The notes beneath the pieces were generated by a model, which worked only from the letters and a program-made list of their open reading frames with translations, did not search any database and was not told where the DNA came from. From assembly GCA_009773765.1 (NCBI GenBank), contig WTWZ01000017.1, positions 1 through 38,903 of the forward strand: a DNA stretch of 38,903 bases, in the 5' to 3' direction. The stretch's first letter is position 1. Every line of letters starts with the position of its first letter. Of the stretch, positions 6,676-17,546 are shown in pieces. A program made the position numbers and the translations under genes. This stretch comes from Prolixibacteraceae bacterium. GTDB lineage: Bacteria; Bacteroidota; Bacteroidia; Bacteroidales; Prolixibacteraceae.

Positions 6676-7449
6676 ATGGAGAAAAAATCGTGTGTGCTTT
6701 TTTGTCGCTGCAAAGCCGGAGTTGTTTCCAATGAAATGCTGGACTCGGTTGCGGAAGGCCTGCGCGGATTCGATTCCGTTGTTTTTGAAATGCATGATTT
6801 ATGCGCTTTCTCAATTCATGGAAAAGATGTGTTAAAGGCCATCGGAAAAGAGTTTAAGCAAAAAATTGTTATCGCTTGTTATCCGCGGGCTGTAAAAAAT
6901 ATGCTGCGGCAGGCAGGCGTAAATTTTGGCGGTTTCGAGGTGTTAAATTTCAGGGAGTTGTCGCCTGAAATGATTTTTTTGAAACTTGAAAACGATTTGA
7001 AACTTGAAAAAGGCGAAGCGCGCTATCAGGAGCAAATTACTGATTTGGATGTACCTGCGTGGTTTCCGGTAATTGATGAATCGCTTTGCACACTTTGCGG
7101 AAAATGTGCCCGGTTTTGTTTGTTTGGCGTTTATAGTTACGATAAAAAAAACCTGAAAGTAGTCAACCCGCTGGCGTGTAAAAACAACTGCCCGGCTTGC
7201 GGAAGGACATGTCCCACATTGGCAATTATGTTTCCGCGACTGGCCGAAAATACGATTTTGGCTGGCGCTGAACCTGATGGGAAAAAAATATCAATCGAAA
7301 AAGGAAGTTTATTAATGACATTGAACGAAAGAAACCAAAACCGCCGGTACATTTTCAGGCAGGGAGTTGTTCAACAGGCAGAAATAGAGCGGCAAAAAGC
7401 CATGGCAGAATTTAAAATGGGAATGGAGAATTTCAATAAGAATGATTAA
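6676..7449 (+). CDS. [4Fe-4S] ferredoxin-like protein, first gene of the terpenoid operon
   Basis: A protein of 257 residues. The N-terminal 110 residues form an alpha/beta region with several cysteines (SCVLFCRCKAG, IVIACYPRAVKNML), reminiscent of parts of HdrA-like proteins. The middle holds two iron-sulfur motifs: CTLCGKCARFC (C-x2-C-x2-C-x3-C) and CKNNCPACGRTCP (C-x3-C-x2-C-x3-C). The C-terminal tail is charged and helical (AEIERQKAMAEFKMGMENF). It probably carries electrons, most simply to the radical SAM enzyme whose gene overlaps its end by 8 bases (inference). I chose the ATG at 6676; a TTG at 6667 would add three residues. No signal peptide is seen, so it is cytosolic. Confidence 0.75.
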   Translation: MEKKSCVLFCRCKAGVVSNEMLDSVAEGLRGFDSVVFEMHDLCAFSIHGKDVLKAIGKEFKQKIVIACYPRAVKNMLRQAGVNFGGFEVLNFRELSPEMIFLKLENDLKLEKGEARYQEQITDLDVPAWFPVIDESLCTLCGKCARFCLFGVYSYDKKNLKVVNPLACKNNCPACGRTCPTLAIMFPRLAENTILAGAEPDGKKISIEKGSLLMTLNERNQNRRYIFRQGVVQQAEIERQKAMAEFKMGMENFNKND

Positions 7450-8617
7450 ACGAATACTTTTCAATACCGATAAAAAGTGCCTGTATAAATTTGTATATAA
7501 TATGGGGGTAAAAGGCATATTCAGTTTTAACCGTTATCAGCGGCGGTTGAAAAAGGGCGTGTTTTTTCCGGCCTTTCATTTTATTTCTGTTACTGACGAT
7601 TGCAACCTGAATTGCCAGGGCTGCTGGGTAACCGGCAAAAAGAAAAACGCGCGGATGCCGCCCGGACAGTTGGATCAGATAATATCAGAAACCAAAGCCA
7701 AAGGTTCCTTTTTTTTCGGGATTCTGGGCGGTGAACCGCTGATGTATAAACCGCTTTTTGAGGTGCTGAAAAAACACCCCGACTGCTATTTTCAGCTTTT
7801 TACCAACGGAATATTACTGACCCCCGCAGTGGCAGGGGAACTGCGAAAATTGGCAAACATAACACCCATAATCAGTTTCGAAGGCGATGAAAATGTAGCC
7901 GATATCCGCCGCCGTGGCAATGATGTTTTTCGGCGAACAACCGAAGCGGTTGAAAATGCAACCCGCGCCGGATTGATTACCGGTGTGGCCATTAGTGTCT
8001 GTAAATCGAATATCGGTTTGGCATTGTCGCCCGAATTTATCAACTCGCTCATTAAAAAGAATGTGGCGTATTTGTGGTACTATATTTACCGTCCGGTGGG
8101 AGCCGATTCAACGGTTGAACTGGCGCTCGAAAAGGAAGAAATCCAGAAACTACGGCAGTTTATGGTAGATGCCCGAAGCGGGTTCGACATCGCAATTATC
8201 GATGCCTACTGGGATGATAAAGGAAACGGTTTGTGCCCGGCAGCGACTGGATTGAGCCACCACATCAACGCATCGGGCTACATCGAACCTTGTCCGGTAA
8301 TTCAGTTTGCTACCGATAAGGTTGGAGAAAAACCACTTGCGGAAATTTACCGCGATTCGATCTTTCTGGATAAAATGAAAAAAGAAATTCCGAAAAAAAC
8401 GTCGGGATGTATAATTATGGAAGACCCTCAATGGCTGGCCGGGTTTGTGGAAAAACACGCTGCCACCGATACATCGGGGAGAGGCAATGAAGCTGAGCGC
8501 TTAAGAAAAATGCCTGGGGTTCCAAGTCATGGATCAGGGATTCCGGTTCCTGAAAAAAGCTGGATTTACAGGTTTGCAAAAAAACGGGCTTTTTTTGGTT
8601 TGGGTGCGTATGGTTAA
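7442..8617 (+). CDS. Radical SAM enzyme with SPASM/Twitch-like C-terminal cysteines
   Basis: A 391-residue protein. The radical SAM cluster motif is DCNLNCQGCW (C54, C58, C61), followed by GGEP at 96-99, which binds the methionine part of SAM. In the C-terminal third, further cysteines (NGLCPAAT, IEPCPVI, TSGCII) suggest at least one auxiliary cluster, as in SPASM or Twitch domains. Such enzymes make a 5'-deoxyadenosyl radical to modify peptides, lipids or cofactors. The start overlaps the preceding ferredoxin-like gene by 8 bases, and the DUF116-prenyl synthase gene begins 6 bases after its stop, so all are one operon. It is not an obvious HpnH (adenosylhopane synthase), although its company, a cyclase and a prenyl synthase, is hopanoid-like. 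No precursor-peptide gene is visible nearby, which argues against a peptide maturase. Confidence 0.85.
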   Translation: MIKRILFNTDKKCLYKFVYNMGVKGIFSFNRYQRRLKKGVFFPAFHFISVTDDCNLNCQGCWVTGKKKNARMPPGQLDQIISETKAKGSFFFGILGGEPLMYKPLFEVLKKHPDCYFQLFTNGILLTPAVAGELRKLANITPIISFEGDENVADIRRRGNDVFRRTTEAVENATRAGLITGVAISVCKSNIGLALSPEFINSLIKKNVAYLWYYIYRPVGADSTVELALEKEEIQKLRQFMVDARSGFDIAIIDAYWDDKGNGLCPAATGLSHHINASGYIEPCPVIQFATDKVGEKPLAEIYRDSIFLDKMKKEIPKKTSGCIIMEDPQWLAGFVEKHAATDTSGRGNEAERLRKMPGVPSHGSGIPVPEKSWIYRFAKKRAFFGLGAYG

Positions 8618-8623
8618 AAATTT

Positions 8624-10195
8624 ATGGTGAAGAGAAAACGAATATTAAAAGTCCCGAAAGACCGCAATTTACGTGAAATGTTGCGGAAGGAAGTTGCTTC
8701 GTATGTTTCTGAAAACAAAATCCTTCCGCCTTCCAATATGGAAACTCTTGAAAACGAAACCGGAAAATTGCTTGATAAACTTAAACTGGACAATGAATAC
8801 CTCTATTTTACAATGGTTTTGTTTGGCAATGAAACCTGGCGCGATGTAGCTGCCGCAACCCCCTTTCATCGCAGGCTGCTTTTATTGCCGCAATGTTTGC
8901 GCAACAACTTTCAGTGCAAAGGGGTTTTTGATGATTTGGGGCTGGCTTGTGCAGGTTGCAAAAGCTGTCAGATCGATCATATTCTCGTAAAAGCCGAAGA
9001 ATTGGGTTACACAACGTTGGTTGCCGAGGGAACAACTGTGGCCATTGGTTTGGTTGAAGAAGGTTCCATAGACGCAGTAATAGGAGTAAGTTGTATGCCT
9101 GTGCTGCAAAACTCGTTCGAACCGGTAACCCGTGCAGCGGTTCCGGCAATCGGGCTGCCGCTGCTCCACGACGGCTGCGAAAATACTTCGCTCGACTATG
9201 GCTGGCTTTTTTCAGAAATGGAACAGTTTTCAGAAAATAAGGAAGTTCAGCCGCTTTCTGTTTCTCAAATAAAAAATAAGGTTTCTGAATATTTTTCCGA
9301 AGAAAACCTGAAAAAATTCTTTGCCACAAATTCTGAAACCGAAAAACTGGCTTTTAAAACCATGGCTTTGGGCGGTCAAAGAATGAGGCCGCTTCTGGCA
9401 CTGCTCGCATATCAATCTTATTCCAAAAATATTTCAGAAGAAATTCAAACTGCCCTGGCGATCGTCATCGAATGTTTTCACAAAGCTTCTCTGGTTCACG
9501 ATGATATTCAGGACGATGAGGATTTTCGTTACGAACAGCCGGCTTTGCATAAAACCGAGGGAATTCCTGTGGCAATCAATATCGGAGATTACCTGATTGG
9601 AAAGGGATACCGGTTATTGTCAGCAGTTCCGTGTGATCCGGTTATTCGCGCCAAATGTTTAGAGGTTGTTTCCGCATCGCATTTAAAACTTTCGGAAGGG
9701 CAGGGAGCCGATTTGTTGATGCAGAAAAACAGGACAAAAATGACGGTGGAAGGCGTGCTGGAGATTTTTGAACAAAAAACCGGAGAGGCGGTAAAGGTGG
9801 CTTTGTTAATGGGCGCCATTGCCGGAAATGCTGCGGAAAATGAATTAGTGTACCTTGCCCGGTTTTCGGAATATTTCGGAATTGCCTACCAGATTCGCGA
9901 CGATTTAAACGAGTTCCGCGAAGAAAACAAACACAAACATGCTTTTGATTTCCCGTTTCTTTTAACCCTGCTAAACGTAAATCTTAACGGGCAAACACCC
10001 GGATTTTCAGATATTCTGAAATCAGAAGATTTGGAGCTTCTTTTTAGGAATTTCAAAAAATTTTCCATCGAAGAAAAGGCCGAAAAATACCTTGACGATT
10101 ATATCAGGAAAAGTCAGGAAGAACTCAACAAACTGCAAAATTTAAAGCTCAGGCTGGGTTTATACGGTGTATTGGGAAAAGTGTTTAAAAAGTAA
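8624..10195 (+). CDS. Fusion of DUF116 iron-sulfur domain and trans-polyprenyl diphosphate synthase
   Basis: A 523-residue two-domain protein. Residues about 60-200 match DUF116: LLPQCLRNNFQC, CAGCKSCQIDHI (C109, C112, C115), VIGVSCMPVL (C157) and LHDGCENTSLDYGWL (C185), a cysteine set fit to hold an Fe-S cluster. Residues about 215-520 are a trans-prenyltransferase: GGQRMRPLLAL, first aspartate-rich motif HDDIQDDED (D293, D294, D297) and second motif YQIRDDLNE (D426, D427, E430). Oddities are the second motif ending in Glu rather than Asp, and replacement of the usual RR after the first motif by RYE. The residue five before the first motif is Ala, which by family rules permits chains longer than FPP (inference). 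It would make the prenyl diphosphate for the cyclase two genes downstream. The role of the DUF116 part is unknown. Confidence 0.88.
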   Translation: MVKRKRILKVPKDRNLREMLRKEVASYVSENKILPPSNMETLENETGKLLDKLKLDNEYLYFTMVLFGNETWRDVAAATPFHRRLLLLPQCLRNNFQCKGVFDDLGLACAGCKSCQIDHILVKAEELGYTTLVAEGTTVAIGLVEEGSIDAVIGVSCMPVLQNSFEPVTRAAVPAIGLPLLHDGCENTSLDYGWLFSEMEQFSENKEVQPLSVSQIKNKVSEYFSEENLKKFFATNSETEKLAFKTMALGGQRMRPLLALLAYQSYSKNISEEIQTALAIVIECFHKASLVHDDIQDDEDFRYEQPALHKTEGIPVAINIGDYLIGKGYRLLSAVPCDPVIRAKCLEVVSASHLKLSEGQGADLLMQKNRTKMTVEGVLEIFEQKTGEAVKVALLMGAIAGNAAENELVYLARFSEYFGIAYQIRDDLNEFREENKHKHAFDFPFLLTLLNVNLNGQTPGFSDILKSEDLELLFRNFKKFSIEEKAEKYLDDYIRKSQEELNKLQNLKLRLGLYGVLGKVFKK

Positions 10196-10197
10196 AA

Positions 10198-11037
10198 TTG
10201 AACACCCAAAATCCATATCAACCAATTTACCGTCAGTTAATTCATGAAATTGAAAAGGGATTTTTGTTACTCGACGAAACAATACAGAAAGAAATTTACG
10301 GATTTGTGGCAAGTCAGCAACATCAAAACGGCGCTTTCACCAATCGTGGCGGCCATCCTGACATTTACTACACTTTGTTTGGAGCTTGGTTGGCGGAAGC
10401 TCTCGGATTAACTTCACAAATGAATCAACTGAAAATTTTCACTGAAAAAGTTAATCCAGATAAAAAGAAGATAGTCGAAAGGTTTGCACTACTTTTAATT
10501 AAAGCTGTGGCAGATAACGATTTCAAAAAACCTGCGGTCTTTTCGCTCGTCAGAATGATTTTTAAAGGTGGAAAAGATATCAATCCAGCTTATCAGGTTT
10601 TTCTGTTTTTGCTCAGTTTCGATGCGTTATATGGCAAAAACAGGTTTCTCTATTTTCTTTTCAGTGTTGTTTTGAACTTTTACCGTTCGCCGGAAGATGC
10701 ACCTTGCAGTTTTTCTGCTGCGGTATTGGTTGCAAAATATTTAGTTGGGAAAAAGGTGGAAAACGAAACACAAAATCAACTTGCTTATTTTGAAGCTGGA
10801 AAAGGGTTTAAAGTTTTCAAAGAGTTGAAAAATGCTGATTTGCTTTCAACGGCAGTTGCACTTTTTGCGCTTAAAAAAGCAGGGGCTGATTTAAGGATTG
10901 TTGCTCCTGATTGCCTGAATTTAATTCAGCAAAATTACGATTCGGGTGCTTTTTTATCTGGCGACTGCGATTCTTCACGCGATTTGGAATACACGTTTTA
11001 CGGGCTTTTGGCATTGGGGGCACTTTCGGAAATATGA
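10198..11037 (+). CDS. Small alpha/alpha-toroid protein (prenyltransferase/squalene-cyclase repeat)
   Basis: A 279-residue protein starting at a TTG two bases after the preceding stop; no earlier start is possible without overlap and the next in-frame ATG would cut off the first repeat. It contains repeats of the prenyltransferase/squalene oxidase type: VASQQHQNGAFTNRGG followed by DIYYTLFGAWLAEALG near the N-terminus, and IQQNYDSGAFLSGD followed by LEYTFYGLLALGAL at the C-terminus. These build half or all of an alpha/alpha barrel. The DxDD motif of class II cyclases is absent, so it is probably not itself a cyclase. Its stop overlaps the cyclase start (ATGA), indicating coupled translation and perhaps a physical partnership with that enzyme (inference). 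Confidence 0.75.
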   Translation: MNTQNPYQPIYRQLIHEIEKGFLLLDETIQKEIYGFVASQQHQNGAFTNRGGHPDIYYTLFGAWLAEALGLTSQMNQLKIFTEKVNPDKKKIVERFALLLIKAVADNDFKKPAVFSLVRMIFKGGKDINPAYQVFLFLLSFDALYGKNRFLYFLFSVVLNFYRSPEDAPCSFSAAVLVAKYLVGKKVENETQNQLAYFEAGKGFKVFKELKNADLLSTAVALFALKKAGADLRIVAPDCLNLIQQNYDSGAFLSGDCDSSRDLEYTFYGLLALGALSEI

Positions 11038-12836
11038 AGGGAAAAGAATTAATAAAACGTTTAAACGAGGTTGGTAATTTTGTTGCCGGAGAGCTGAACC
11101 AGGACGGTTTCTGGCAGGGGCAGCTTTCGTCGGGCGCTCTTGGAGTGGCCGTGGCTGTGGCCGCGCTGCATTTTGATGATCCTTTTAAAAATGCAGTAGA
11201 AATTGAAAAAGGAATTTTATGGTTACAGCGAAATATTAACGAAGACGGCAGTTTTGGCGACACGCCCGAAAGCCCCGGAAATGTAAGCGCCAGCTTGTTG
11301 TGTTACGCGGCTTTAAATCTTTATGCAGAAAAGGATAAATCGGCAAAAAAAACGCAGCAACAAATAGCCGGTTATCTGGGAGTACAAAAAATTGATGTGA
11401 ATTCTGCGCAGGTTGTACACTTTATCCTCGATTATTACCAAAAAGATTACACATTCTCGGTGCCTATTTTAACCATGTGCGGACTTTGCGGCGTTCCGGG
11501 ACAGGATGCTTTTAACCACATTCCGCAATTGCCGTTTGAACTTTCATTGCTCCCACGCCGGTTTTACAGGTTGCTGAATTTGAACGTGGTCAGTTACGCC
11601 ATTCCTGCTTTGGTTGCCGTTGGAATTGTCATTTTCAAAAAGAAAGAATCAAAGTTGTTTTGGCGGATCATCCGCCGGTTTTCCATTAATAAAGCGATAA
11701 ATATTCTGCACCAGATGCTGCCCGAAAGCGGCGGTTATCTGGAAGCAATCCCACTTACGGCATTTGTAAGCTTGAGCCTGATAAATTCTGATTTTGCAGA
11801 AACGGAGGTAGTGAAAAAAGGGATTGGATTCCTGAAAAAAACACAACGGCCCGACGGTGGCTGGCCAATTGATGTGGACTTGTCAACATGGGTAACTTCG
11901 TTGTCGGTAAAAGCTTACAGATCGAATTTGAATGATTTTCTTACACCAGATGAACAAAATAAAATTGCCAGGCATTTTAAATTGATTCAAAACGAAGGAA
12001 TTCATTCATTTAACGGTACTGGCCCCGGCGGGTGGGGCTGGACAAACTATTCAGGTTCTGTGCCCGATGGCGATGATACACCGGGTGTAATTCTGGCGCT
12101 TTTAAAACTTCAACCTAAAGAAAAAATTAAAAAGGAAGTATTGGCGGGTGCAAAATGGCTGCAACAGTTACAAAACAGCGATGGTGGTTTTCCAACTTTT
12201 TCAAAGGGGTGGGGAAAACTGCCTTTCGACAAAAGTTGTTCTGATTTAACAGGTCATTGTTTACTTGCTGTTTCAGCAATTTTGGAAACGTTTAAGAACG
12301 ACTTACAAAATAAAGAGCTTCAGGTTCTTGGAGAATTATTCAAAAATGCATTGAGGTACCTTGAAAAAAACCAATCGAAAAACGGAAGCTGGTTGCCGCT
12401 TTGGTTTGGCAACCAGTTAACAAACAATTATGCAAACCCCGTTTACGGAACTGCAAAAGTTGTTGCTTATTTAAAAGATGCAGCTTCGCATCAATGGATA
12501 AATGAATTGAACTGCAACCGGCTTGGCAAAATGATTCAAAAGGGGAATGATTTTTTAATCTCGGTTCAGAATAACGACAGAAGCTGGGGAGGAGATAAAT
12601 CGATTCCCGGATCGATGGAAGAAACAGCGTTGGCAGTTTCGGCGCTGGCATCTCCTGAAAATATGAAAATTTGTTGTTCAGGGATGGATTGGCTGGATGA
12701 ATTTTATATGCAAAATGGATTTAAACCTGCCCCAATCGGGCTTTATTTTGCCTCGCTTTGGTACGATGAGAAAATGTACCCTGCAACTGCATACCTTGAA
12801 GCGCTGACAAGAATGAAGGAGTTGCAGGGAGAATAA
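11034..12836 (+). CDS. Squalene-hopene-cyclase-like class II terpene cyclase
   Basis: A 600-residue protein; the ATG at 11034 overlaps the previous stop by four bases (ATGA), and an upstream in-frame ATG at 10911 lies inside that gene and is rejected. QW-type repeats recur: FLKKTQRPDGGW, WLQQLQNSDGGF, YLEKNQSKNGSW and FLISVQNNDRSW. The catalytic acid motif DxDDT is present as VPDGDDTPG (residues 345-349), preceded by GPGGWGW as in squalene-hopene cyclase. Downstream the equivalents of DVTxHVLE (SDLTGHCLLAV) and of the GSWxGRWG...YGT region (GSWLPLWFG, then NPVYGTAKVV) are visible, as is the C-terminal YFASLWYDEKMYPATAYLEAL. Such enzymes protonate a polyprene and cyclise it at the membrane. 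At 600 residues it is a little shorter than hopene cyclases (about 630-720). The substrate may differ from squalene, since no squalene synthase is seen nearby. Confidence 0.9.
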   Translation: MKGKELIKRLNEVGNFVAGELNQDGFWQGQLSSGALGVAVAVAALHFDDPFKNAVEIEKGILWLQRNINEDGSFGDTPESPGNVSASLLCYAALNLYAEKDKSAKKTQQQIAGYLGVQKIDVNSAQVVHFILDYYQKDYTFSVPILTMCGLCGVPGQDAFNHIPQLPFELSLLPRRFYRLLNLNVVSYAIPALVAVGIVIFKKKESKLFWRIIRRFSINKAINILHQMLPESGGYLEAIPLTAFVSLSLINSDFAETEVVKKGIGFLKKTQRPDGGWPIDVDLSTWVTSLSVKAYRSNLNDFLTPDEQNKIARHFKLIQNEGIHSFNGTGPGGWGWTNYSGSVPDGDDTPGVILALLKLQPKEKIKKEVLAGAKWLQQLQNSDGGFPTFSKGWGKLPFDKSCSDLTGHCLLAVSAILETFKNDLQNKELQVLGELFKNALRYLEKNQSKNGSWLPLWFGNQLTNNYANPVYGTAKVVAYLKDAASHQWINELNCNRLGKMIQKGNDFLISVQNNDRSWGGDKSIPGSMEETALAVSALASPENMKICCSGMDWLDEFYMQNGFKPAPIGLYFASLWYDEKMYPATAYLEALTRMKELQGE

Positions 12837-13687: not shown

Positions 13688-15049
13688 ATGAACTTTAAAA
13701 TTTTTCTGTTTATTTCAGCATTCCTAATCACAATTACAAGTTTGGCACAAAACCCCGATCCAGTACGCCAGTGGTTTATGTACCGGGGTAATTATGCAAG
13801 CGGGATTCTGGATAATGCCAATCTTCCAAAAACATGGAATGCAGAAACGGGTGAAAATATTGCCTGGAAAGTTAAAATACCCGGGTTGGGCCATTCGTGC
13901 CCAATCGTTTGGGGCGACAAAGTTTTTGTTACAAGCGCTGTGAGCGAAGAAGATAATGGGGGCGTTCAACCTGGAATTTATGGCTCTATTGACCCTGTAC
14001 AGGATTCATCGGTACATGAATGGAATTTGTACTGTTTGGACAAAAAAACCGGGAAAATAAAATGGAAAAAAACAGCATACAAGGGAGTACCTGAGCAAAA
14101 GCGCCACCCGATGTCATCGCACGCAAACTGTACCCCGGCAACAAACGGCGAATATGTTGTTGCTTTTTTTGGATCCGAAGGATTGTATTGCTACAATATG
14201 AATGGTGATTTGCAGTGGCAAAAGGATTTTGGCGTATTGAAATCGGTATTTTTTATGGATGAATCTGCCGAGTGGGAATTTGCCAGTTCGCCACTCATTC
14301 ACGACAATGTTGTTATTATACAATGCGATGTGCATAAAAATTCTTTTTTGGCAGCTTATGATTTGGCCACGGGGAGAGAACTCTGGAAAAAACAGCGCGA
14401 TGAATACCCGGGATGGTGTACGCCAAACATATATTTTGATGGGGATAAAACACGAATTGCTGTAAATGGGTTTAAACACCGCGGAGGTTACGATTTTGAA
14501 ACCGGCGGTGAAATCTGGAGAATGTCGGGCGGTGGCGATATTCAGGTGCCTACGCCGATAACAGCAAACAACCTTGTTTATTTTAACAGCGCCCACGGAA
14601 AATATTCACCTGTTATGGCAGTTCGTGCAAATGCTGTGGGCGACATTACTTTGAAAGAAAACGAAACATCAAATGCAGGGGTAAAATGGTTTCACCCGAG
14701 GGGAGGTTCTTATATGGGAACAATGCTGGTTTATGGCAATTACCTTTACAACGCAGCCTGGAATGGAAAACTTACCTGTTACAACGCGATAACCGGAGAA
14801 GAGATGTATTCACAAAAAGTTGGAAGCGGGAACAGCTACACTGCTTCACCGGTTGCTGCCGACGGGGTTATATATATTGCCGATAACGACGGCAAAGTTT
14901 ATTCTGTAAAAGCAGGGCCTGATTTTGAAATTTTACAGGAGAACAATTTAAGCGAGACATTCATGTCAACGCCAGCTATTTCAGATAATTACCTTTTTTT
15001 CAGAACGGTGAGCCATTTGATAGCGGTGTCGGCAAAAGCGAAAAATTGA
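13688..15049 (+). CDS. Exported PQQ-like beta-propeller repeat protein
   Basis: A 453-residue protein with a signal peptide (MNFKIFLFISAFLITITSLA followed by Q) and repeated propeller blades of the PQQ/BamB type: GENIAWKVKIPG, DKKTGKIKWKKTAYKG, MNGDLQWQKDFG, LATGRELWKKQR, ETGGEIWRMSGGGDI, NAITGEEMYSQKVGSG. The blade motif (x-G-x-x-x-W) is clear. Proteins of this kind are periplasmic and serve either as dehydrogenases or as scaffolds; the sequence does not show which. It stands between the scar of mobile DNA and the MMPL transporter gene, with 97 bases to the latter. A link to lipid export is only suggested by position. Confidence 0.85.
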   Translation: MNFKIFLFISAFLITITSLAQNPDPVRQWFMYRGNYASGILDNANLPKTWNAETGENIAWKVKIPGLGHSCPIVWGDKVFVTSAVSEEDNGGVQPGIYGSIDPVQDSSVHEWNLYCLDKKTGKIKWKKTAYKGVPEQKRHPMSSHANCTPATNGEYVVAFFGSEGLYCYNMNGDLQWQKDFGVLKSVFFMDESAEWEFASSPLIHDNVVIIQCDVHKNSFLAAYDLATGRELWKKQRDEYPGWCTPNIYFDGDKTRIAVNGFKHRGGYDFETGGEIWRMSGGGDIQVPTPITANNLVYFNSAHGKYSPVMAVRANAVGDITLKENETSNAGVKWFHPRGGSYMGTMLVYGNYLYNAAWNGKLTCYNAITGEEMYSQKVGSGNSYTASPVAADGVIYIADNDGKVYSVKAGPDFEILQENNLSETFMSTPAISDNYLFFRTVSHLIAVSAKAKN

Positions 15050-15146: not shown

Positions 15147-17546
15147 ATGTGGATTAGGGTTTCCCGCATCATACTTCGAAATAAAATATTGTTACTGACC
15201 TTTTTGGCCCTCATTACCCTATTCCTTGGTTACCACGCCCGGAAAGTGGAAATGTCATACGAATATGCTTCCATGCTCCCCAAAAAAGACCGCGCATTTC
15301 AGGATAACCAGAAGTTTATTGAAGTTTTTGGCGAAGAGGGAAACCTCATCATTATTGGTATTCAGGATTCAACTTTTTTCGAATTCAATAAATTTCAGAA
15401 ATGGAAAAAACTTTGTAACGACCTTCTAAAAGTTGAAGGGGTTGAAAACCTCTTGTCGGTTTCAAATGCATACAATCTGCATAAAAATACAGAAGAAAAA
15501 AAGTTTGAAATAGAAATGGTTTTCCCCGATACCATTTCAAATCAGGAAGAACTTGACAGTGCGGTGGATAAATTTAAAAGCCTGCCTTTTTATGAAAAGC
15601 TGCTTTACAATGATGAGAACAACACCTATTTGATTGCCATAACTGTTAACAAAGACAAAATGCTCTCGAAAGAGCGGGAAAAAATGGTGAAAGCCATCCA
15701 GAAAATTGGGAAGCAATTCGAAAAAGAAGAAAATGCAAAACTGCACTATTCCGGCTTGCCATACATCAGGGTGGTAACGGCAATGATGATAAAATCAGAA
15801 CTTTACCTTTTTAGCGCACTTGCGCTGGTTATTTGTATCGTTGTCCTTTTTCTTTTTTTCCGTTCGTTTAAGGCAGTGTTTTTCCCTGTGGTGGTTGTAC
15901 TTATTGGGGTAATCTGGTCGCTGGGGACATTGGGTTTGTTAGGATATAAAATTACAATCCTTTCAGGGATGATACCTTCGTTGCTGATTGTAATCGGGAT
16001 TCCCAACAGCATTTACATGATGAATAAATTTCACCATGAATTTGTAAAACACGGCAACAAAGTAAAAGCTGTGCAACGGGTTATTGTAAAAATAGGGAAT
16101 GCAACTTTTTTAACCAACCTTACAACAGCCCTCGGCTTTGCAACATTCATTATTGTAAAAAGCGATTTGCTGAAACAATTTGGAATTGTGGCTTCCATAA
16201 ATATCATGGGCCTTTTTGTGCTTTCCCTCATTCTGATTCCTGTTATTTTCAGTTTCATTAAAACCCCTTCGCCACGGCATGTGCGCCATCTGGAATACAA
16301 ATTGGTAACCAGGGTAATTGCATGGTTTATTAATGCAACCCAAAAGCACCGCAAATGGGTTTATGCAACAACGGGAGCCATTCTTGTTTTGGGCATTTGG
16401 GGTATTACATTCATGAAATCTTCAGGATATGTGGTTGATGATATTCCCAAAGACAATCCGATTTACACCGGCCTGAAATTTTTTGAAGAAAACTTTAACG
16501 GACTGATGCCCCTCGAAATAATGATTGACACCAAAAAACCCACTGGAGCAATGCAACTTTCAACCTTTGAAAAAATTGATGAACTCGAAAAAAGACTCGA
16601 AAAATATGATGAACTGTCAACGCCAACTTCGATATTAAACCTGCTAAAATTCTCGAAACAGGCCTTTTACAACGGCAGCGAAAATTACTACAGCTTGCCC
16701 AACAACCGCGAGAAAAACTTTATTCTTCAGTATGTAGCCACGGGTGAAAAAAATTCGGGCCTGCTTCACTCGTTTTTAGACAGCACCCGGCAGTTTACCC
16801 GGATTAGCATCAGGGTAAAGGATGTTGGGGTTAAACGGATGGAGGAACTTTACACCAGTTTTTACAACGAAATCGATTCCGTGTTTAATCCTGCGGATTT
16901 TAATGTAACTGTCACTGGTACAAGTATTACCGTATTTAAAGGCACAAATTATTTATTGCACAATTTATTAACGAGCCTGGCACTGGCAATTGCGCTTATT
17001 TCGCTAATTATGGCACTGATGTTTTCGTCGTGGCGAATGGTAGTTATGTCGCTCACACCCAATATTATACCTCTTATTTTTACTGCCGCGGTCATGGGTT
17101 TTACCGGTATCCCGATTAAAGCATCAACCATACTGGTGTTTAGTATTGCATTTGGAATTTCAGTTGACAACACTATTCATTTTCTTGCAAAGTACCGGCA
17201 GGAACTGAAAGCGACAGGGTGGGACATAAAAAAATCGGTAATTCTGGCGTTAAGCGAAACAGGGGTAAGTATGTTATACACCTCGGTAGTGCTGTTTTTC
17301 GGGTTTGGCATTTTTGCTGTTTCAAGTTTTGGAGGAACCCGTGCAATGGGAATTTTAGTGTCGTTAACCCTGGTTGTTGCGGTTATCTCAAACTTAATAC
17401 TGCTTCCATCGCTGCTTTTTAGCCTCGACAGGTTAACCACAACCCGTGCATTTAAAGAACCAATGCTGCATATTTATGATGAAGAAGAGGATATTGAGCT
17501 TGAGTATTTGGAATTAAATCATACTGCAAAAAATAAGGAGGATTAA
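15147..17546 (+). CDS. MMPL/RND-superfamily transporter (HpnN-like lipid exporter class)
   Basis: A 799-residue inner-membrane protein with the duplicated RND layout: one N-terminal helix (KILLLTFLALITLFLGYHA), a periplasmic domain of about 200 residues, five or six helices (from ELYLFSALALVICIVVLF), then a second helix (WVYATTGAILVLGIWGITFM), a second periplasmic domain and a last helix bundle ending near residue 770. The motif FGISVDNTIHFLAKYR is typical of the MMPL/Patched branch, which moves hydrophobic molecules such as hopanoids, sterols and mycolates. The tail is acidic (YDEEEDIELEYLEL). The gene contains the ribosome binding site of the prenyl synthase that follows, tying transporter and isoprenoid enzyme together. 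Direct evidence for substrate is lacking. Confidence 0.85.
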   Translation: MWIRVSRIILRNKILLLTFLALITLFLGYHARKVEMSYEYASMLPKKDRAFQDNQKFIEVFGEEGNLIIIGIQDSTFFEFNKFQKWKKLCNDLLKVEGVENLLSVSNAYNLHKNTEEKKFEIEMVFPDTISNQEELDSAVDKFKSLPFYEKLLYNDENNTYLIAITVNKDKMLSKEREKMVKAIQKIGKQFEKEENAKLHYSGLPYIRVVTAMMIKSELYLFSALALVICIVVLFLFFRSFKAVFFPVVVVLIGVIWSLGTLGLLGYKITILSGMIPSLLIVIGIPNSIYMMNKFHHEFVKHGNKVKAVQRVIVKIGNATFLTNLTTALGFATFIIVKSDLLKQFGIVASINIMGLFVLSLILIPVIFSFIKTPSPRHVRHLEYKLVTRVIAWFINATQKHRKWVYATTGAILVLGIWGITFMKSSGYVVDDIPKDNPIYTGLKFFEENFNGLMPLEIMIDTKKPTGAMQLSTFEKIDELEKRLEKYDELSTPTSILNLLKFSKQAFYNGSENYYSLPNNREKNFILQYVATGEKNSGLLHSFLDSTRQFTRISIRVKDVGVKRMEELYTSFYNEIDSVFNPADFNVTVTGTSITVFKGTNYLLHNLLTSLALAIALISLIMALMFSSWRMVVMSLTPNIIPLIFTAAVMGFTGIPIKASTILVFSIAFGISVDNTIHFLAKYRQELKATGWDIKKSVILALSETGVSMLYTSVVLFFGFGIFAVSSFGGTRAMGILVSLTLVVAVISNLILLPSLLFSLDRLTTTRAFKEPMLHIYDEEEDIELEYLELNHTAKNKED
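17536..17541 (+). promoter_or_regulatory. Strong Shine-Dalgarno that fixes the GTG start of the prenyl synthase
   Basis: AGGAGG at 17536-17541 lies inside the last codons of the transporter gene, 7 bases before the GTG at 17549. A consensus site is unusual in Bacteroidota, where most genes here lack one, and it supports this start and translational coupling. Confidence 0.7.

Follow-up and report, generated by a model that had tools for sequence, protein, structure and literature searches.

A conserved five-gene cassette in Prolixibacteraceae and a second phylum that may specify a polycyclic terpenoid not made from squalene

The known ring-shaped membrane lipids of bacteria are dominated by squalene-derived hopanoids and sterols. 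Hopanoid loci set a class II cyclase gene beside genes for a radical S-adenosylmethionine (SAM) enzyme and for isoprenoid synthesis; the locus on plasmid p1318-3 of Roseomonas marmotae (L139; L and G numbers denote loci and genomes of the comparison) comprises hpnA, hpnC, hpnD, hpnE, shc and hpnH. Bacillus SqhC is a class II cyclase that uses a non-squalene polyprenyl substrate. The subject of this analysis is a cassette of five genes, A to E, at positions 6676-12836 of a contig from a Prolixibacteraceae bacterium (assembly GCA_009773765.1, contig WTWZ01000017.1); the window is the whole stretch of 38,903 nucleotides that was analysed. The cassette shares with hopanoid loci a class II cyclase gene placed beside radical SAM and isoprenoid genes, but its genome lacks HpnC and HpnD, its cyclase (E) belongs to another group, its radical SAM enzyme (B) is not HpnH and its prenyl synthase (C) is fused to a DUF116 domain, while the annotation of L139 includes neither the small toroid protein D nor the iron-sulfur (Fe-S) protein A. 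SqhC, compared as a B. velezensis plasmid copy (L142), is a class II cyclase like E but groups with the squalene-hopene cyclases (SHCs; support 100/99), and the 6.7 kb around it hold no annotated DUF116, radical SAM or prenyl synthase gene. The cassette is real and conserved, is built from known folds and is apparently undescribed: no description of it was found in the open-licence PubMed Central (PMC) literature, subscription papers lying outside that scope.

The five open reading frames (ORFs) form a tight operon on the forward strand, with the overlaps and gaps that a preliminary description of the window, made from the sequence without database searches, had given. The motifs which it singled out (CNLNCQGC in B, DDIQD and DDLNE in C, PDGDDT in E) are all present and are conserved among aligned homologues:

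6676-7449, + strand: A, two-part Fe-S protein (Pfam Fer4)
7442-8617, + strand: B, radical SAM enzyme (8-base overlap with A)
7601-7624, + strand: radical SAM cluster motif CNLNCQGC of B
8624-10195, + strand: C, DUF116 fused to a trans-polyprenyl diphosphate synthase (6-base gap after B)
8771-9211, + strand: DUF116 domain of C (residues 50-196)
9500-9514, + strand: first aspartate-rich motif of C, DDIQD
residues 426-430 of C: second aspartate-rich motif, DDLNE
10198-11037, + strand: D, small alpha/alpha-toroid protein (TTG start; 2-base gap after C)
11034-12836, + strand: E, class II (squalene-hopene-type) cyclase, by sequence of a separate group (4-base overlap with D)
12066-12077, + strand: catalytic-acid motif DGDD (DxDD) of E (residues 345-348)

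None of the curated NCBIfam cut-offs is reached by A, C or E among the matches listed, and a promoter and terminator scan returned signals not in excess of those in shuffles.

Searched with E, genome_contigs (84,980 species) yields 23 cyclase loci, the nearest of them from Maribellus, Draconibacterium, Mariniphaga and 'Prolixibacteraceae bacterium', and the order A-B-C-D-E is complete in 18 of the 23, counting L047, in which A is partial, and L042, in which C is split over two frames. Three of the remaining five (L034, L048, L050) are truncated where their contigs begin; the other two, L051 and L052 from Lentisphaerae, have E alone, and in their genomes C lies elsewhere, in the company of B, A and D (L116, L117). 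Carriers with a species name include Maribellus maritimus (L032), Tangfeifania diversioriginum (L033), Mariniphaga sediminis (L037) and Draconibacterium aestuarii (L041). Two ORFs intervene between D and E in L032. An additional ORF of 522 amino acids lies between A and B in G084 (L072:3729). Across the 43 cassette loci compared, no neighbour cluster other than the five genes themselves occurs in more than 10. Within the window's family (140 genomes) C is found in 90 genomes and the cyclase domain in 88: both occur in 87, neither in 49, and a single one in 4. Among the four mismatches, G008 shows E only, in a locus (L078) that starts at the contig start inside D; in G098 E runs off the contig start (L011); G023 has ~1.3 kb of contig left past C; and G094 is without a contig-end explanation.

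The phylum called second here is the one to which G141 belongs, the source genome of L052 ('Lentisphaeraceae bacterium'); we take it to be Verrucomicrobiota in GTDB. Its 288 genomes include 52 with C (E-value 1e-40) and 53 with E (E-value 1e-25); 51 have both, one has C only (G749), two have E only (G675, G783) and 234 have neither (Fisher p ~5e-53, a statistic that ignores shared ancestry). Many of these pairs of C and E lie on different contigs, so that their co-occurrence is not a matter of linkage alone. In 19 regions around C (from 18 sample genomes and G140; C itself was lost by ORF calling in L132), the commonest of the other four genes is D (10 regions), followed by B (9), A (7) and E (6). 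A sample of 395 genomes across the Bacteroidota contains no DUF116 fusion at E-value 1e-40 besides that of the window's own genome, the only other match (G413) covering profile positions 245-512, the prenyl synthase part; since few genomes of the window's own order are among the 395, this sample says little about sister families. The five genes share one order in 18/23 loci, and C and E occur together in 87/140 and 51/288 genomes of the two groups; conservation of the genes together, on which the preliminary description had made its novelty claim depend, is borne out. Since the arrangement is met with again in other genera and in another phylum, it is not the product of chance.

Pfam family PF00494 (SQS_PSY) comprises the squalene, presqualene and phytoene synthases and is the family of HpnC and HpnD. 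It has 0 matches in the window's genome, as against 7 positive genomes among 14 controls; the lack of an HpnC/HpnD route, previously noted for the window, thus extends to the genome, HpnE being outside the search. Among the 91 family carriers (genomes with C or E) 23 have no PF00494 gene, including the single-contig genomes G036 and G070; the same holds for 41 of the 51 second-phylum genomes with both C and E, the other 10 having at least one.

By sequence, E is a class II cyclase of a separate group and not a hopene cyclase. Both Pfam domains are recognised (SQHop_cyclase_C, 92.5 bits, cut-off 26.1; SQHop_cyclase_N, 67.5 bits, cut-off 26.2), the DxDD catalytic acid (D345, D347, D348) is kept in 32/32 aligned rows, and 31/32 rows keep D404 and H408, which fall in the alignment close to the acid-activating residues of SHC. 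The SHC equivalog model TIGR01507 is missed (86.7 bits vs a cut-off of 431.1). The window's E is 38-75% identical to other members of the cassette cyclase group and 22-24% identical to the SHC and SqhC sequences compared. Ahead of the DxDD domain the SHC rows carry a segment of ~40-50 residues that is missing from E, and E shows insertions peculiar to itself. In a 38-row tree, midpoint-rooted and containing five reference rows and a Streptomyces clavuligerus row on a very long branch, the 32 cassette cyclases of both phyla make up one group with modest support (80/95) and the four SHC-type rows with Bacillus SqhC make up the other (100/99). The distance from the hopene cyclases compared, on which the novelty of the cassette had been made to depend, is thus borne out by the tree.

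Protein C is a fusion of DUF116 (PF01976, 103.7 bits, cut-off 25) with a polyprenyl synthase (polyprenyl_synt, 136.7 bits, cut-off 27), and both halves are well conserved in an alignment of 39 rows (one gene, L080 and L116, being included twice). Seven cysteines of the DUF116 part (C91, C98, C109, C112, C115, C157, C185) are invariant in 39/39 rows, the first five with the spacing CX6CX10CX2CX2C; on the synthase side DDxxD, DDxx[DE] and K385/T386 are kept in 39/39 rows and the GGxRxRP motif (R253) in 38/39. The structures nearest to the predicted model of C (19 rows, mean predicted local distance difference test score, pLDDT, 87) are polyprenyl synthases ranging from those for farnesyl and geranylgeranyl diphosphate to that for octaprenyl diphosphate. 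Small residues, A288 and S289, precede the first DDxxD; by a rule that we assume to hold here, they suggest a product of C20 or longer. A readthrough of C with selenocysteine had to be considered, an in-frame TGA having first been reported in several homologues (L015-L018, L020, L022, L027); the stops of L017 and L022 are codon 522, the end of the protein, and there is none within the aligned range in L015, L016, L018, L020 and L027, and selenocysteine was accordingly discarded. An earlier paper characterises DUF116 as a probably flavodoxin-like domain with a CxxCxxC motif and a suggested role in electron transfer, fused to a polyprenyl synthetase in some bacteria, for example in Pirellula staleyi Psta_0175, which has the same domain fusion as C (PMC5898192). 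The fusion itself is therefore not new, a point that escaped the preliminary description. The passage in question argues for electron transfer from other neighbours and makes no mention of cyclase, radical SAM or toroid partners; these partners of DUF116 are apparently new within the open-licence PMC literature.

Calling A a 'ferredoxin-like protein', as had been done, covers only part of it. The C-terminal part is a dicluster ferredoxin resembling part of HdrA, its eight cysteines kept in 25/25 aligned rows, and it is preceded by an extra N-terminal four-cysteine domain, of which Cys10, Cys12, Cys43 and Cys68 are kept in 22/25 rows and absent in 3. An in-frame TAG occurs in A near residue 234 on one contig of a metagenome-assembled genome (L046:597-1346). 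B matches Pfam Radical_SAM with 57.9 bits, and the hallmarks of that superfamily, CxxxCxxC (C54/C58/C61) and GGEP (G96-P99), stand in 29/29 rows, together with three further invariant cysteines (C265, C284, C323; 29/29), which by our reading are twitch/SPASM-like and mark a putative auxiliary cluster. None of the best 25 of its 53 NCBIfam matches reaches its cut-off. An assignment of B to HpnH fails (TIGR03470, 34.1 bits vs a cut-off of 225.05), and the annotated HpnH of L139 aligns to the B profile only over positions 33-181; the likeness is retained as an analogy only. Plasmids carry relatives of B, the closest of which (30-31% identity; Klebsiella pneumoniae, Escherichia albertii and Methanosphaera) are annotated just as 'radical SAM protein', and no isoprenoid genes appear in the incomplete annotation of the Methanosphaera and Klebsiella regions. 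Genes resembling GcvH and CobW lie near A and B in L116:3170-5900, L117:4019-6767 and L120:11013-12613 (families tested on L120 only), and L117 has in addition a gene that we read as like a cysteine desulfurase; these may possibly supply cofactors to Fe-S enzymes.

Protein D matches no family in Pfam, NCBIfam or PHROGs. Its predicted model (21 rows, pLDDT 91) is an alpha/alpha toroid. The nearest solved folds in Foldseek include the beta subunits of RabGGTase and farnesyltransferase and the class II cyclases, at E-values of 4e-3 or worse and TM-scores ≤0.58 among the matches listed; compared with PDB sequences, the profile of D finds RabGGTase beta with E-value 2e-6 over 42 positions. D resembles RabGGTase beta in fold and repeat motif but differs in having no conserved cysteine or histidine: neither residue occupies an invariant or nearly invariant column in the 21 rows. 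Protein prenyltransferases require zinc ligands (Asp, Cys, His), and in the want of conserved Cys/His ligands D does not qualify as a protein prenyltransferase beta subunit.

The cassette also tracks a second, redox-type locus in two phyla, an association absent from the preliminary description. In several divergent loci it adjoins genes for pyrroloquinoline quinone (PQQ)-like beta-propellers, an NHL-repeat protein with an invariant CCNP (6 rows), a ferredoxin with what we read as a signal for twin-arginine translocation, and a membrane Fe-S protein similar, under cut-off, to NapH and NosR; the NapG models give no match to the ferredoxin. Wider reads add a further propeller, a fusion of NuoE with NuoF and a NuoG/GltD-like protein to the redox locus, which no family model names as a system. 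Examples are L155:966-16515, L149-L154, L156 and L157; in the window's genome the locus lies on two other contigs (L147, L148), with the NapH-like gene cut by a contig end. Searched for with a profile from five cassette-linked rows (A6, E-value 1e-40), the NapH-like gene is present in 108 of the 140 family genomes, 87 with the cassette and 21 without (cassette alone in 4, neither in 28), and among the 288 second-phylum genomes it accompanies the cassette in 41 (cassette alone in 13, gene alone in 5, neither in 229). It is thus found in 87/91 family carriers and 41/54 second-phylum carriers. Reading of the listings places it within 10 kb of E on one contig in 10 family and 16 second-phylum genomes (L044, which is the contig of L150, and L068, from G105, are each counted once), and four loci, L150, L151, L152 and L157, join cassette and redox locus. 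Family carriers of the cassette nearly always have the redox locus, and the converse does not hold: the cassette may need electrons from the redox locus, or its product may serve it. Shared lifestyle could be the dull alternative explanation of the association.

Taken together, gene content and motifs make it probable that the cassette encodes a self-contained route to a polycyclic terpenoid whose starting material is not squalene. Conservation, the absence of an SQS_PSY gene from the window's genome and the separate grouping of the cyclase leave this pathway well supported at the level of the genes; what survives of the pathway first proposed is the set of prenyl chain, cyclase and radical Fe-S chemistry, and what finds no support is the product class then named, a hopanoid-like lipid or cofactor. 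As its motifs indicate, C would condense isoprene units to a trans-polyprenyl diphosphate; E would protonate this chain through its DxDD acid and so fold it into rings; B and the DUF116 domain, fed by A, would act on the chain or its rings by reductive or radical chemistry, such as removing or replacing the diphosphate or adding a group. D, to judge by its fold, would probably hold or hand on the prenyl chain, and the product would most likely be located in the membrane. A number of observations weigh against this reading. The co-occurrence statistics take no account of shared ancestry, and the completeness of the second-phylum genomes is not given; C is the sole member of the five in 6 of the 19 second-phylum regions. 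A PF00494 gene is in fact present in 68 of the 91 family carriers, and G602, G723, G726, G735, G753 and G770 of the second phylum have two each. The top NCBIfam model of E is the squalene/oxidosqualene cyclase TIGR01787 (98.5 bits, cut-off 322.7), and DUF116 has been linked, in the passage already cited, with electron transfer rather than with lipids (PMC5898192). The paired PF00494 genes make a squalene-fed version of the cyclase possible in those six genomes, every one of which is without the NapH-like gene.

The most direct challenge would have the Fe-S and radical parts stand in for squalene synthase: C would make farnesyl diphosphate, DUF116, B and A would couple two molecules head to head, and E would convert the result to a hopene-like triterpene, amounting to an alternative hopanoid route. 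Such a route would account for the window's genome having no gene of the squalene synthase family, and it is in keeping with the best general model of E and with its best solved relative, an SHC (E-value 3e-16 vs 4e-5 for 7xq4, a drimenyl diphosphate synthase). It has to contend with a score far below the SHC equivalog cut-off (86.7 vs 431.1 bits), an identity of 22-24%, the missing segment of ~40-50 residues and, if the rule given above applies, with A288/S289, which are unlike a farnesyl-only synthase; we think it improbable. Slightly better odds, still in the range of the unlikely, attach to the notion that what the cassette makes serves the NADH-linked redox locus, as a lipid-soluble cofactor or membrane partner, and is not a bulk membrane lipid. 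The distribution of the NapH-like gene among carriers (87/91 and 41/54), its closeness to the cyclase gene in 10 and 16 genomes and the four joint loci all speak for such a partnership, but the gene is also present in 21/49 family and 5/234 second-phylum genomes without the cassette, and is missing from 13 second-phylum carriers, including the Lentisphaeraceae genome G141; shared lifestyle could account for both, and the dependence could run the other way, with the redox locus giving electrons to A and B. That the cassette prenylates a protein or small molecule, C providing the prenyl diphosphate while D and E, both toroids, act like a protein prenyltransferase, is suggested by the RabGGTase beta-like fold and profile of D; the lack of the Cys/His zinc ligands that such enzymes need, and the retention of DxDD in 32/32 rows of E, render this very improbable indeed.

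Two neighbours 3' of E in the window were considered as further parts of the proposed pathway or its partner locus. A PQQ-like beta-propeller protein is encoded at 13688-15049; the idea that it is left over from the redox locus is rejected, its best long matches to the propellers of that locus being ~28% identical, and it is therefore not claimed as part. An MMPL/HAE3-type transporter at 15147-17546 scores 122.8 bits with the model of HpnN, the hopanoid transporter, under the cut-off of 751.85; it is unlabelled in all 43 cassette loci compared and for that reason is likewise not claimed.

A conserved squalene-free cassette in two phyla points to an unseen class of lipid or cofactor. DUF116 gains a testable role, as does the squalene-cyclase homologue in genomes without a squalene synthase, and the link to the redox locus provides a concrete physiological lead. 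In the most far-reaching version, the cassette would stand for a widespread, oxygen-independent class of polycyclic lipids, neither hopanoid nor sterol, which radical and Fe-S chemistry forms straight from polyprenyl diphosphate, and these lipids would serve an undescribed NADH-linked transmembrane redox complex as membrane partner or cofactor. This is a bold surmise and, as a whole, unlikely. Whether living bacteria produce cyclised polyprenols, a postulated source of tricyclic terpanes, also becomes testable. These terpanes have been called 'orphan biomarkers', for which tricyclohexaprenol is the postulated precursor and algae a possible alternative origin (PMC9247107); a title cited in PMC6770870 presents tricyclohexaprenol as an improver of membranes. 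If the proposed pathway is true, the cyclised polyprenoids of these bacteria would, speculatively, be candidate precursors of the tricyclic terpanes of sediments and oils.

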